A stretch of DNA of 48,107 nt from Patescibacteria group bacterium (GTDB taxonomy: Bacteria > Patescibacteriota > Minisyncoccia > UBA6257 > 2-01-FULL-56-20). The stretch spans positions 1-48,107 of the forward strand of contig JAGWKM010000005.1 in assembly GCA_028865305.1 (NCBI GenBank), written 5' to 3'. The notes under the pieces are model-generated. The model was not told where the DNA came from, ran no database searches, and saw nothing but the letters and a program-made list of their open reading frames with translations. The position numbers and the translations under genes are program-made. Of this stretch, positions 3,544-26,831 are shown in pieces. The first letter of the stretch is position 1. Each line of letters starts with the position of its first letter.

Positions 3544-4431
3544 GTGAAATTTGTGAAAATAGCGTTTGCCTTTACGTTATTTTTCGCGGCCTTCGGACAA
3601 AATATAATTACGGTAGCCCCCAAAAACTCCGTACCGCGGAAAGCGAATCTGCGTGTTGATCGCATCATGGTTTTGGTTCCGGCGACGGTAACTGATATCC
3701 ATGATCATCCGGTGCTTAACCTTACCGGGGATAAATTCCGGATCAGCGAGAATGGCGTCGAACAGATGGTAGTTTCCGCATCCGTTGAAGACGGCCCGAT
3801 TTCCTTCGGCATCGTCTTTGATGGCAGCGGAAGCATGAAGGGGCCGAGAATCGCCTCTGCCAGGATGGCCGTGGATGCCCTATTAGAGGGCGCGATCGAA
3901 GGAGATGAATTTCTCCTCGCCTTTTTCAATGATCGCCCGTCGCTTCTCTGCGGATTCACGCCGAATCCGAGCGACATCTTCTCGCGCTTATCATTTGTCC
4001 AACCGGTTGGTTGGACAAGCTTGAATGATGCCCTGATTCTCGCGGCTGCCCGGATGAAAAATGCCAGGAACCGCCGCGTCCTGTTCGTCGTTTCCGATGG
4101 CGGCGACAACAACAGCCGATACGACGACAACGAAACATTCAAAATTCTTCTGGAATCGGATGTTGCCGTCTACACGCTCGGCATTCTGACAAAACAGAAA
4201 TTATTGCAGCGGCTGGCAGATGGAACCGGCGGCGTTGTTTCGATGGTCCGCTCTCTCGGAGACGTTGCCCCAGCAGCCAATCGGCTGGCGCGCATCATGC
4301 GGAACCGCTACTTTCTTGGATATTATCCCCGCCTGCCCAATGACGGACGGTGGCGGAAAATTAAGGTCAGCATCCCGTCCAATCCTGATCTCATCATCAG
4401 GGCGCGATCCGGCTATTGGTCGCCTGAATGA
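3544..4431 (+). CDS. Exported VWFA protein, Acidobacteria-type (TIGR03436-like)
   Basis: I chose GTG 3544 because it follows an SD (GGAGG) and gives a signal peptide (VKFVKIAFAFTLFFAAFG). About 295 aa. The VWA domain has the MIDAS motif DGSGSM, the threonine in GWTSLNDAL and the aspartate in VVSDGGDNN. The C-terminus has RYFLGYYP, DGRWRKIKV and RARSGYW, the hallmark of the 'VWFA-related Acidobacterial domain'. The likely role is secreted adhesion or protein binding. It has its own promoter and terminator next to tRNA-Asn. With its SD-led start, unlike most genes here, it looks acquired. Confidence 0.85.
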   Translation: MKFVKIAFAFTLFFAAFGQNIITVAPKNSVPRKANLRVDRIMVLVPATVTDIHDHPVLNLTGDKFRISENGVEQMVVSASVEDGPISFGIVFDGSGSMKGPRIASARMAVDALLEGAIEGDEFLLAFFNDRPSLLCGFTPNPSDIFSRLSFVQPVGWTSLNDALILAAARMKNARNRRVLFVVSDGGDNNSRYDDNETFKILLESDVAVYTLGILTKQKLLQRLADGTGGVVSMVRSLGDVAPAANRLARIMRNRYFLGYYPRLPNDGRWRKIKVSIPSNPDLIIRARSGYWSPE

Positions 4432-4440
4432 TTTTCTCCA

Positions 4441-4469
4441 TGGCCAGTTTTTTAAGCTGGCCTTTTTTA
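4441..4469 (+). terminator. Rho-independent terminator of the VWFA gene
   Basis: Stem GGCCAG (4442-4447) / CTGGCC (4457-4462), followed by a T6 run. Confidence 0.85.
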
Positions 4470-4612
4470 TTTGACAAGCGAGGAGCAGAACCCGAATCCC
4501 GATTTATATTGCGGCCTATTTAAAATTGCTTTGCCCCGACGGGGATGCTACCCTTCAAACAGAATCCGCACAAGAATAACAATCCGGACACAAACGAAAA
4601 AAGGAGGCACTT

Positions 4613-5140
4613 ATGAGGCTGTTAGCCCTGGTTGTGATTATTTGCCCAATCGGGTGGTCGAATTCGCCGTCTTGCGAGCGGGCGTTTCCGGGCAGCATAC
4701 CGCTCGAGAAAAACCATCGCACATATCGCCTGTTGGGCGATTTGGAACGAAAGGCGAAAATACCGCAATCAATCCTTCTTTGCGTGTGGAAAACTTTCGG
4801 GGACCGATCGCTTGATATCAGGTCGCTCCGCGCGAATGCGCAAACGGCGCCAGCCGGGACAATTGTCGCGACACGCACTTTGTTGGAAATCTTTTCGAAT
4901 GCCGCGCTCGATGGAGCCCTGGCCCATGAACTCGGCCATATAATAATCGGCCGATGGTTGGTACCGCAATCCAAGAGTGGAAAGGAATATGAAGAGCGAC
5001 GGGTCGATGCTTATGCGATCAGGCTCGCCGGATCCGCTTCGCTCCGATCGACCTACCTGGAATACACGGGCAATGCCGCCCTTGCAAAACGCAGAGTTGC
5101 GCGCGCAGAAGCATTGATGTTCACGCAAAAGTCGCCATAA
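4613..5140 (+). CDS. Exported zincin-type metallopeptidase (M48-like)
   Basis: A 175-aa protein with a signal peptide (MRLLALVVIICPIGW) and a zinc motif HELGH (in ALAHELGHIIIG, about residues 104-115). A plausible third ligand lies in EERRVDAYAIRLAG, the M48 arrangement E..xD..A. It is short for M48, little more than the catalytic core. The start has a strong SD (AAGGAGG, 6 nt upstream of ATG). It sits downstream of the VWFA gene in the tRNA-Asn neighbourhood, and both look like recent arrivals. The substrate is unknown. Confidence 0.7.
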   Translation: MRLLALVVIICPIGWSNSPSCERAFPGSIPLEKNHRTYRLLGDLERKAKIPQSILLCVWKTFGDRSLDIRSLRANAQTAPAGTIVATRTLLEIFSNAALDGALAHELGHIIIGRWLVPQSKSGKEYEERRVDAYAIRLAGSASLRSTYLEYTGNAALAKRRVARAEALMFTQKSP

Positions 5141-10460: not shown

Positions 10461-10577
10461 AATGTTAGTTGTTTTCGATTTTCGGATTTTCGGAGTTCAC
10501 CAAAAATCCTTCGACCTTTTGGCATTATTGAGAATACGGAACTGCGACTGAAGCTGTGATGAAGGCGGGGAGAGATT

Positions 10578-11451: not shown

Positions 11452-12369
11452 TCAATACTTATATGTGTCCACGAGCAGTCCATTCCTATCGAACAGGTAT
11501 ACGTTATCGTGGTACGGATCAAGCGGGCTCGCGCCCATCCAGGCGCGCCATTCTTTCGAGAGGAAATTGGAATCATTCAGGTGGGCATTGAAGCACGCGC
11601 GGTAATTGAAATTATCGGCAATGTAAGCGCGGCAGGTATAATCGTTCAGCGGGATCTGCGGATTATTCAAATTGGGAACCTGGCAGGATCCGATGGAATA
11701 GATGAAGTTCTGGCATGCGCCGGTGAAACCGGAAAGCGGGGCGCGGTCGGGCGCGGGGCAATTCATGGGCAACGGCGGATTGAAATGGTTTGCGGTGCCG
11801 ATATAGCCGATGCATTCGTTGAGGCGGAGGTTGAACGGCCCAGACTGCGAATACAGGTTCACGTACTGGCTGTTTTGGGTAAAAATGATGTCGCTCGGCG
11901 CGGTGAGTCCGGACGGATCATACAGATTGACTGCCTGCGGCACGTATTCCCCTCCCCGATTTGCGACAATGTGCCAGCCGGTCACATCGACCGATTCGCC
12001 CTGGCTCAAATTCGTGGCATAGAGCGAAATTTGGCCGTAGGCGCCGGTGCTTACGGATCCAAGCAGAACTTGGTGGAAATACGGGGAGAGCCCGGCGGCG
12101 GTAAAACCGGCCGGTATGTCGGCGGGATTTATCGTATTAGTTGCCTGCTGGTTACTGGTTACCGACTGCTGGTTACCGGCTGCTGGCTGCGGATTCAAAT
12201 AGGTCTGGCCGGACGACGGCACACTCGGCCTTGAGTAAGTGCTCGACGGGAACCGCAATGCATTCCCTAAACTGCTGAAAGCGTTGCCGACCAAGCCGGA
12301 ATTTATGGCGTATATCAAAATCGCAAGGATGAGGACGAAGAAAAGAATGATGCCGATTTTGGAGCCCAT
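11452..12369 (-). CDS. Surface protein with lamin-tail-like domain
   Basis: A 305-aa protein anchored by an N-terminal TM (IGIILFFVLILAILIYAI). A low-complexity linker (about residues 45-80) is encoded by 7-bp-periodic repeats (CTGGTTA, CCGGCTG units at 12130-12190), giving GNQQSVTSNQQATN. The globular part has ISLYATNLSQGESVDVTGW, VNLYDPSG and a C-terminal VYLFDRNGLLVDTYKY, the pattern of LTD (lamin tail) domains on bacterial surface proteins. Several cysteines suggest disulfides. The role is unknown. Confidence 0.65.
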   Translation of the reverse strand: MGSKIGIILFFVLILAILIYAINSGLVGNAFSSLGNALRFPSSTYSRPSVPSSGQTYLNPQPAAGNQQSVTSNQQATNTINPADIPAGFTAAGLSPYFHQVLLGSVSTGAYGQISLYATNLSQGESVDVTGWHIVANRGGEYVPQAVNLYDPSGLTAPSDIIFTQNSQYVNLYSQSGPFNLRLNECIGYIGTANHFNPPLPMNCPAPDRAPLSGFTGACQNFIYSIGSCQVPNLNNPQIPLNDYTCRAYIADNFNYRACFNAHLNDSNFLSKEWRAWMGASPLDPYHDNVYLFDRNGLLVDTYKY

Positions 12370-24698: not shown

Positions 24699-24846
24699 GG
24701 AAATAGTATAGCAAGGAGTAGGAAGTAAGCAAAAAAGCAAAAAAAACGGGCTCCAATGACCAAGGCGGAAACAGTCCAAAAAACCCGCTCATCATACCAA
24801 AAACCTATAAGCCTAGCGACTCATAAGGCGTCTTATATAACACCAA

Positions 24847-24873
24847 AGCAAAACCCCCGCTTTTGACGGGGGC
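24847..24873 (-). terminator. Terminator of rnpB
   Basis: On the minus strand CCCCCG/CGGGGG with loop TCAAAAG, then TTTT. It lies about 12 nt beyond the P1 stem. The gap 24699-24846 holds only a weak CGGGC/GCGGG hairpin. Confidence 0.85.
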
Positions 24874-24913
24874 TTCGCATGGAACTTTGGCAATCCATAA
24901 GCCGGATTCTGTG

Positions 24914-24993
24914 ATATGAGAAGTGAGACGTGAGAAATGGGATGTGAGAAAATTCTCATTCCCCACATCCCACATCTCACTTCCCATTTGACG
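24914..24993 (-). repeat. Heptamer palindrome extending an rnpB helix (P19-like position)
   Basis: Units TGAGAAG, TGAGACG and TGGGATG face CATCCCA, CATCTCA and CTTCCCA, giving a ~33-bp hairpin between the P18-side sequence and the P4 3' strand. Confidence 0.8.
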
Positions 24994-25042
24994 ATCATTT
25001 ATCTGGATCCTCGATTACTCTTGGATTCGAGCGGCACCCTGG

Positions 25043-25411
25043 ACTGGTAACTGGTTACTGGTAACTAGAAAACCTGGTAATAAAATTAATTTAAACTCTT
25101 AATCAACTGATACGGCTCCTTCCCGGTGATGACATATTCGCGTATTGACTTACAACGACCAAATCCTTCCGCTATATTTAAAGGAATGGATCGTGGCGAT
25201 CTCCGAATCTGGTCCGCGATATCAAACCGATACTCCCTCGGAAGGCCTAAGGAAATATTGTGTATCCGGACTGCTAATCGATAGGATCTTTGATAAACAT
25301 CCAAATCTCGGTAAGTCATTGCGCTATTTTACAACGCGATTATTAAATTTTTATTAAAGAACTATTGACTTATTACCAGGTTCGCTAACTACCAGTAACC
25401 AGCTACCAGCC
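25043..25411 (-). mobile_element. Intervening sequence (IVS) inside rnpB
   Basis: It is bounded by ~41-nt imperfect inverted repeats (25043-25084 and 25370-25410) made of CTGGTAA/CTGGTTA heptamers and an ACCTGGTAATAA block. It lies between GCAAGGCC (P15/P16 side) and GGGTGCCGCTCGAA (P6/P18 side), so it replaces or extends P16-P17. It carries a four-helix-bundle ORF, like 23S rRNA IVS elements. Confidence 0.85.
25086..25319 (-). CDS. 23S-IVS-type four-helix bundle protein, internally deleted
   Basis: A 77-aa protein. Its N-terminal part YRDLDVYQRSYRLAVRIH, then IADQIRRSPRSIPLNIAEG with FGR, is diagnostic for the four-helix-bundle (S23/IVP) family normally found in 23S rRNA intervening sequences. 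Members are ~115-125 aa. Here GRCKSI joins directly to REYVITGKEPYQLIKSLN, which resembles the family C-terminus, so ~45 central residues appear to be lost in frame. TAAAAT lies 6 nt before ATG. The ORF runs in the same direction as rnpB and lies within the IVS stem. The function of the family is unknown. Confidence 0.85.
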   Translation of the reverse strand: MTYRDLDVYQRSYRLAVRIHNISLGLPREYRFDIADQIRRSPRSIPLNIAEGFGRCKSIREYVITGKEPYQLIKSLN

Positions 25412-25639
25412 AGTACGGCCTTGCACCCGGTAAGGATTTTGCCGTTTCACCTTCACCTTTTTATCCCTATAGTGAAGTTAAGCCAACGAGCTTGGGATGG
25501 GGCTCCCGATCTCCTTTCGAAGACCGGCGTCACTGCTCGCACCTCTGTCCTTGCGGACGGCGGCTGTTAGCCGCTACCTTTTTATCCTGCAAAGCTCCGT
25601 TGGGGGCAAAACAGGAGAGTGTCCGGACTTTCCTCATGC

Positions 25640-25708
25640 TCAGATAACGGACTTCAGATATCAGATTTCAGACATTCTGCACCTGATTTCTGAAATCCGG
25701 AATCCGAA
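25640..25708 (-). repeat. Heptamer palindrome extending the rnpB P3 region
   Basis: On the plus strand CAGATAA, CGGACTT, CAGATAT and CAGATTT face CTGATTT, CTGAAAT and CCGGAAT. It forms a long helix between P1 and P4, the position of P2/P3. Confidence 0.8.
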
Positions 25709-25736
25709 CATGCGATCGTCTGGATTGCCGTTTTAT

Positions 25737-25765
25737 AGTATACTATATTCTACGGAAAAAATCAA
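25737..25765 (-). promoter_or_regulatory. Promoter of rnpB
   Basis: On the minus strand TTGATT (25765-25760), a 17-nt spacer and TATACT (25742-25737). The start would be at the 5' strand of P1. Confidence 0.8.
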
Positions 25766-25817
25766 ATCATTCATTCCAACATTCTGAAGAACGTCGGAAT
25801 GGGCAATTACCCCGATC

Positions 25818-26831
25818 ATGCCTCAAAAAACAAAACTCATCGCCATCGTAGGACCGACGGCGAGCGGAAAAACATCGCTCTCGATCGAACTTGCGCGGAA
25901 ATATCACGGCGAGATCGTTTCCGCTGATTCACGGCAAATCTATCGCGGGATGGATATCGGAACGGCGAAGCCGGAAGCGGATACGGAGAATGGAGAAACG
26001 AGAAATGAGAAAGGATTACCCATGCTCCATGCTCCATTCTCCATTCTTCATTCCCAAGGCATCCCTCACTTCCTCGTTGACATAAAGAATCCCGATGAAG
26101 ATTACACGGTTGCCGAATATCAGCGCGACGCGATGGCGGCGATCGACGGCATCCTGCGCCGCGGCAAACTGCCGATCCTCATTGGCGGCACGGGACTTTA
26201 CATGCGCGCGGTTCTCGAAAATCTGGACATTCCGAAAATCAAAGCAGATCCGGAACTGCGCGCGCAAATCGAACATGAAATCAAAGAAAAAGGCCTGGCG
26301 GCGGTCTTCAAAAGTTTAGTGGAGCGCGATCCGGAGGCGGCATATATTGTCGACCCGAAGAATCCGCGGCGCGTGGTGCGCGCGCTCGAGGTGGCCATTG
26401 CGACCGGCGAGCCGTTCACCGCGCAGCGGAAAAAGCAGGAACCGCTCTATGATGCGCTGAAAATCGGGCTGAATCCCCCGCCGGAAGTTTTGCGCGAGCG
26501 GATCAATCTGCGCATCGATCTCATGATGCAGGATGGCTTGGTGGCGGAAGTAGAGGGGCTGGCGAAGAAGTATGGGACATGGGACATGGGACATGGGACA
26601 TGGAAACTTCCCTCTGCCCTCGACGCGATCGGCTACCGCGAGATCATAAAATATCTCGAAAACAAAATTTCACTCGAAACCGCGGTCGAAGAAATGAAGT
26701 TGAACACCTGGCACTACGCCAAACGGCAGTTGACCTGGTTCCGCCGCGACGCCGGAATCCACTGGATTGAAAACGCAACAGAAGCGGATCGGCTCGTCGG
26801 GGAATTTTTAGCAAGCATAAAAGAAAAGTGA
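25818..26831 (+). CDS. miaA: tRNA dimethylallyltransferase
   Basis: A 337-aa enzyme that adds the isopentenyl group to A37 of tRNAs reading UNN codons. Motifs are IVGPTASGKTSL (P-loop), SADSRQIYRGMDIGTAKP, GGTGLYMRAVLE, NPRRVVRALE and AIGYREI. Two insertions are made of 7-bp repeats. One follows AKPEA (DNA 25985-26056, units GGAGAAT then CATTCTC), giving ENGETRNEKG..MLHAPFSILHSQ. The other is near residue 252 (four GGGACAT units, 26574-26601), giving GTWDMGHGTW. Both keep the frame. No SD is seen; rnpB is divergent. Confidence 0.95.
   Translation: MPQKTKLIAIVGPTASGKTSLSIELARKYHGEIVSADSRQIYRGMDIGTAKPEADTENGETRNEKGLPMLHAPFSILHSQGIPHFLVDIKNPDEDYTVAEYQRDAMAAIDGILRRGKLPILIGGTGLYMRAVLENLDIPKIKADPELRAQIEHEIKEKGLAAVFKSLVERDPEAAYIVDPKNPRRVVRALEVAIATGEPFTAQRKKQEPLYDALKIGLNPPPEVLRERINLRIDLMMQDGLVAEVEGLAKKYGTWDMGHGTWKLPSALDAIGYREIIKYLENKISLETAVEEMKLNTWHYAKRQLTWFRRDAGIHWIENATEADRLVGEFLASIKEK
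25985..26056 (+). repeat. Heptamer palindrome in miaA
   Basis: GGAGAAT, GGAGAAA, CGAGAAA and TGAGAAA face CATGCTC, CATTCTC, CATTCTT and CATTCCC. It is translated in frame. Confidence 0.85.

Follow-up and report, generated by a model that had tools for sequence, protein, structure and literature searches.

Intervening sequences (IVSs) have been described as elements of 16S and 23S rRNA genes (PMC4990558). Does the RNase P RNA gene (rnpB) of a Patescibacteria group bacterium harbor an element of the same kind, and what would such an insertion mean for the ribozyme? The question arose from the window, the whole stretch of DNA analysed (48,107 nucleotides, contig JAGWKM010000005.1), which belongs to a single genome, a metagenome bin assembled into 2.0 Mb in 388 contigs (~98% complete, contamination estimate 8%). 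The original prediction placed all conserved rnpB blocks on the minus strand around an insert encoding a four-helix-bundle protein. The gene and its two parts are the following.

24885..25731, minus strand: interrupted gene for the class A RNase P RNA of bacteria (rnpB), recognized by conserved blocks and leave-one-out profiles; no other rnpB was found in the genome
25416..25731, minus strand: 5' part of rnpB, from P1 to the 5' strand of P15, recognized by leave-one-out nhmmer and the GAGGAAAGTCCGGAC block
24884..25037, minus strand: 3' part of rnpB, from the 3' strand of P15 to P1, recognized by leave-one-out nhmmer

Profiles of the relatives' rnpB genes, from which the window had been excluded, were used with nhmmer. 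They matched the locus on both sides of the insert, at 25480-25416 on the 5' side (E=2.9e-18) and at 25037-24988 (E=3e-11) and 24916-24887 (E=7e-6) on the 3' side. The class A core blocks were found conserved on both sides at the predicted positions, and P1 pairs when the joined flanks are folded. When the bacterial RNase P model (RF00010) was run on the locus, as had been proposed, no continuous match was obtained: the model did not span the gene and scored 27 bits against a gathering score of 100, as expected if the 378-nt insert breaks the alignment. A match to RF00010 over the cut-off was absent in 41 of the 61 close-set genomes, the window's own genome counted. Also in agreement with the prediction, a search of the assembly (2.0 Mb, 388 contigs) revealed no further rnpB. 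On either side of rnpB lie ordinary genes: upstream, on the opposite strand, one that resembles miaA, and downstream one for a response regulator.

It is improbable that the rnpB of the window is a pseudogene, with the functional copy missing from the assembly or a protein-only RNase P acting instead. Such a situation would be compatible with the fragmented, ~98% complete assembly and with the failure of the Rfam model to span the gene, but both rnpB flanks are well conserved, all blocks of the catalytic core are kept, and the insertion is confined to a dispensable peripheral helix.

The insert separates the 5' strand of P15, GCAAGGCCG, from the 3' strand, GTGCCGC, by 378 nt, and consists of an open reading frame between two arms.

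25038..25415, minus strand: insert of 378 nt between the P15 strands, at the P16 position, where 47 of 61 rnpB loci of the order have 2-51 nt
25370..25409, minus strand: 5' arm of the insert, degenerate heptads CTGGTAG CTGGTTA CTGGTAG, an inverted repeat predicted to form 25 + 14 bp with the other arm
25044..25083, minus strand: 3' arm of the insert, an inverted repeat predicted to pair with the 5' arm
25086..25319, minus strand: 77-codon open reading frame for a PF05635 protein (23S_rRNA_IVP / four helix bundle protein) that lacks its C-terminal half; Pfam, NCBIfam and PDB matches

The inverted repeats were present as predicted, except that the arms measure 40 nt each instead of ~41 nt; an inverted-repeat search showed them to be 88% complementary. 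Folding predicted 39 bp (25 + 14) between them, and in the minimum-energy structure the arms continue the host hairpin. The fold of the insert had a z of -8.9 relative to dinucleotide shuffles, with none of 100 shuffles equally good. The location had been given as P16/P17; the site is better described as the P16 hairpin, since no separate P17 was visible there in the relatives inspected. The arms show a degenerate period of seven: in the best 35-nt window identity at lag 7 was 64%, versus 43-52% at lags 5, 6, 8 and 9. Elsewhere in the genome the arm sequence recurs just as short CTGGTTG-type arrays and in one stretch at window position 12148. Searches for a group I or group II intron detected no Rfam intron family up to E=1 within 24800-25800, the insert matched no other RNA family of Rfam either, and matches of the palindromes to plant or animal microRNA families were below-threshold chance hits.

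Since the sequence comes from a metagenome bin with a contamination estimate of 8%, an assembly chimera joining an intergenic PF05635 element to rnpB has to be considered. It would, however, require that two joins within a 48-kb contig fall exactly at the apex of P16 and produce complementary arms that prolong the host helix, and we regard it as very unlikely.

The open reading frame at 25319-25086 matched PF05635 of Pfam (E=3.9e-16), TIGR02436 (four helix bundle protein) of NCBIfam (E=1.1e-13) and, weakly, the solved structure of XCC0516 (PDB 2gsc, E=2e-4). Its three closest relatives among the matches listed, from Anaerolineales, Bacteroidales and Ca. Sungiibacteriota, share 47-57% identity with it. 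The predicted family assignment was correct. The match covers positions 1-58 of the 106 of the PF05635 profile, short of a full four-helix domain, and from the conserved GFGR motif to the stop there are ~75 nt. The C-terminal half of the bundle is thus missing and, because the match is limited in this way, the gene has probably decayed. Whether protein is produced is doubtful, since the frame is incomplete and not preceded by an obvious ribosome-binding site.

Like an IVS, the insert is located at the apex of a peripheral helix, replaces a short loop, has long complementary ends and contains a PF05635 reading frame; the RNA that hosts it is rnpB, not 16S or 23S rRNA. It is an IVS-like element in a new host RNA rather than an rRNA IVS, and the central claim of the original prediction, an element of this type in a peripheral hairpin of RNase P RNA with arms extending the host helix, is supported.

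The P16 site was compared across the order in 61 rnpB loci, with a few genomes counted twice. The gap between the P15 strands was 2-51 nt in 47 of them, mostly a simple P16 hairpin, and 13 (12 distinct) had a non-coding hairpin of 67-216 nt. The insert in the window exceeded all of these in length, and no other contained a recognizable gene. A 7-nt period was found in about 8 of the 12 long non-coding hairpins, some of which are AT-rich and score at other lags too. Neither these hairpins of the same style nor the 7-base periodicity of the arms had been noticed in the original prediction. Its suggestion to look for the protein family in other CPR rnpB genes yielded no additional case: inspection of loci from 244 genomes of the order (matches listed) did not reveal a further rnpB with a PF05635 gene, and no overlap between rnpB and PF05635 positions was seen among the matches listed for the order genomes. 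The 20 order loci with weak or missing rnpB matches did not contain a PF05635 gene either. A custom model of the 5' flank was too family-specific for use over the phylum (matches in 55 of 380 genomes). In one locus (L168, G480) about five tandem TCCTGAGTTTAATCGAAGGGCTGCAAG units were observed in the P18 region of rnpB.

Two more hairpins of the interrupted rnpB itself are lengthened in the heptad style, without any gene.

24911..24992, minus strand: P19-type extended hairpin between P18 and the ACAGAA block, formed by a long heptad-like palindrome, an inverted repeat with a 20-bp uninterrupted helix
25640..25708, minus strand: heptad-like palindrome forming an extended P3, from inverted-repeat search and folding

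These observations bear on a competing explanation, which has a substantial though less than even chance of being right: P16 grew by slippage or hairpin acquisition, a PF05635 gene landed in the loop, and the insert is a passive extension that stays uncut in a one-piece RNA. The extension of P3 and of the terminal hairpin, and the long non-coding P16 hairpins of the relatives, are what this would lead one to expect. In addition, rnpB genes with extended peripheral helices and scores below Rfam thresholds have been reported in CPR bacteria (PMC8172020). Against it, the predicted stem of 25 + 14 bp suits RNase III, and the genome of the window encodes this enzyme.

We consider it likely that rnpB was colonized by a coding heptad-hairpin element of the IVS type, a PF05635 gene between inverted arms at the P16 apex. 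The coding element would have arrived by transposition-like movement, the C-terminal half of its gene being lost afterwards. Cotranscribed with rnpB, the arms would pair and merely lengthen P16, a peripheral helix already variable in the order. As the arms only prolong a peripheral helix that is there anyway, the folding model suggests that the catalytic core can still form with the insert in place, and the RNA presumably keeps its activity. A long double-stranded stem such as this one (25 + 14 bp) is a good substrate for RNase III. By analogy with the IVS of Coxiella, the enzyme could cut the 39-bp stem and release the insert without ligation, leaving two paired pieces of RNase P RNA. The chances of such excision into a two-piece RNA appear about even; an uncut extension is nearly as likely as cutting.

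The original prediction had described the protein family as normally confined to 23S rRNA, which an Rfam scan of PF05635 relatives did not support. Among the 80 best GTDB loci of the matches listed, none was in 23S rRNA, none in RNase P RNA and one in 16S rRNA (L079, Ca. Sungiibacteriota); one locus (L152) has a tRNA gene on either side, and the remaining loci overlapped no Rfam family. The 16S-embedded gene of L079 (JACOZA010000039.1, 1489-1851) is at a different site from the 16S copy described below, shortly before the 515 region, and an AT-rich repeat-like hairpin was observed near 1080-1170 of the same locus.

Eight PF05635 copies were found in the genome of the window, one of them in 16S rRNA and the other scanned copies outside any Rfam RNA. 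The 16S copy (C236:20135-20440) is full-length (profile positions 2-105), and heptad-like arms pair around it (fold z = -8.8). The first 59 nt of this 16S are identical to the Sungiibacteriota record and the other exon segments are 77-87% identical; because of these matches the 16S suggests a host of the Parcubacteria group. Given the contamination estimate of 8%, this contig may derive from a related organism instead. A search for 23S rRNA, intended to detect an IVS of its own, gave no match in the assembly. The same 16S gene has a second large insertion (L067, ~4157-5065), which splits the GGATTAGATACCC region and contains several heptad hairpins; all Rfam intron families were below threshold there. 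As to the other copies in this genome, one (L002, 1442-1741) has an in-frame TGA and one (L001, 550-1929) lies within an open frame of 460 codons.

In many phyla PF05635 genes are flanked by tandem repeats of 7 or 8 bases, which are often inverted. A flank was scored when a 42-nt window within 150 nt of the gene was at least 60% identical at lag 7. In the GTDB set (the best 80 among the matches listed) this was found upstream in 52% and downstream in 45%, compared with 3.6% of control segments; for 30 loci of the same order the values were 70%, 47% and 5%. Both sets are made up of related sequences and are not independent samples. Within the GTDB loci period-7 repeats covered 30.2% of intergenic bases near the PF05635 gene versus 4.7% elsewhere, and period-8 repeats 22.1% versus 0.9%; coverage by periods 5, 6, 9 and 10 was ~1% or less. 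Upstream and downstream flanks were more complementary to each other than 99% of swapped flanks in 28 of 85 loci and in 9 of 30 order loci. In two Nostoc loci (L134 and L138, ~1440-1475) the PF05635 genes are flanked by GGGGAGT-type heptads, in the style of cyanobacterial heptameric repeats.

Heptads are also abundant apart from these genes. A 340-kb sample of the genome contained 73 period-7 arrays (N runs excluded) and ~0-5 arrays at other periods. Heptads of the GAATGGA, GGAACAA and TAATTAT types form the arms of PF05635 copies and occur as stand-alone arrays as well. In the window, comparable arrays were lacking at periods 4-6, 8 and 11, and one was found at period 10. Stand-alone period-7 arrays were seen at window positions 10570, 12370, 15436, 16360, 31565, 31639, 32883 and 33258, some with inverted partners.

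Several known systems share features with the insert. IVSs of rRNA with an S23p/IVP reading frame (Coxiella, Leptospira, Salmonella) likewise occupy the apex of a peripheral helix and have long complementary ends and a possibly decaying PF05635 gene (PMC4990558); their host is 16S or 23S rRNA, whereas here it is RNase P RNA. The arms of the present insert consist of heptad repeats. In Coxiella the IVS is excised by RNase III and the S23p gene is decaying (PMC4990558). Abundant intergenic heptameric repeats, some of them inverted, have been ascribed to polymerase slippage in Xanthomonas (GGGAATC) and Nostoc (GGGGAYT); these are 7-base intergenic tandems as found here, and the available text of that report does not mention an association with PF05635 (PMC4692102). 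The extended-helix RNase P RNAs of the CPR share the sub-threshold Rfam score, and a coding element in rnpB is not mentioned in the accessible part of their description (PMC8172020).

The rnpB of heterocystous cyanobacteria reportedly contains STRR heptanucleotide repeats (Vioque 1997, Mazel 1990). Heptameric arrays are also reported to harbor small dispersed repeats (Elhai 2008). The STRR are 7-base tandem repeats in peripheral parts of rnpB, as the degenerate heptads of the window appear to be; by contrast, the repeats of the window are inverted arms around a PF05635 gene. In REP/REPIN systems short palindromic non-coding copies exist beside a coding copy, with its RAYT transposase, in one genome. 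This serves as a working analogy, PF05635 being a small four-helix bundle unlike the RAYT transposase, and no catalytic activity is known for the family. In the open-access literature, whose coverage is incomplete, we found no paper describing an rnpB that contains a PF05635 gene, or heptads beside genes of this family. The insertion into rnpB is new to elements of the IVS kind; extended helices in CPR and heptameric repeats were already known. The link of PF05635 with heptad and octad inverted repeats is correlational, and is both broader and more novel than the rnpB insertion.

One tentative explanation, which we think possible but rather doubtful, is that PF05635 proteins are trans-acting mobility or amplification partners of heptameric and octameric inverted repeats. 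Coding copies would be autonomous and bare hairpins non-autonomous, and both would colonize the tips of structured-RNA hairpins (16S, 23S, RNase P RNA), intergenic regions and reading frames. If PF05635 proteins do act as such partners, the RNase P RNA of this organism would be a fragmented ribozyme. If an IVS occupies the sole rnpB, such elements would be shown to target structured-RNA hairpin tips in general, and the interrupted gene is a natural opportunity to ask whether a two-piece RNase P RNA works. The link to the repeats is a testable lead to two old puzzles, the role of the PF05635 protein and the origin of bacterial heptameric repeats.

Arrays of GAATGGA and ACATGGG were also observed in frame inside the miaA-like gene, at window positions 25981-26060 and 26563-26612, where they encode extra peptide, e.g. 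YGTWDMGHGTWKL. They resemble the Rickettsia palindromic elements, which are inserted in proteins.
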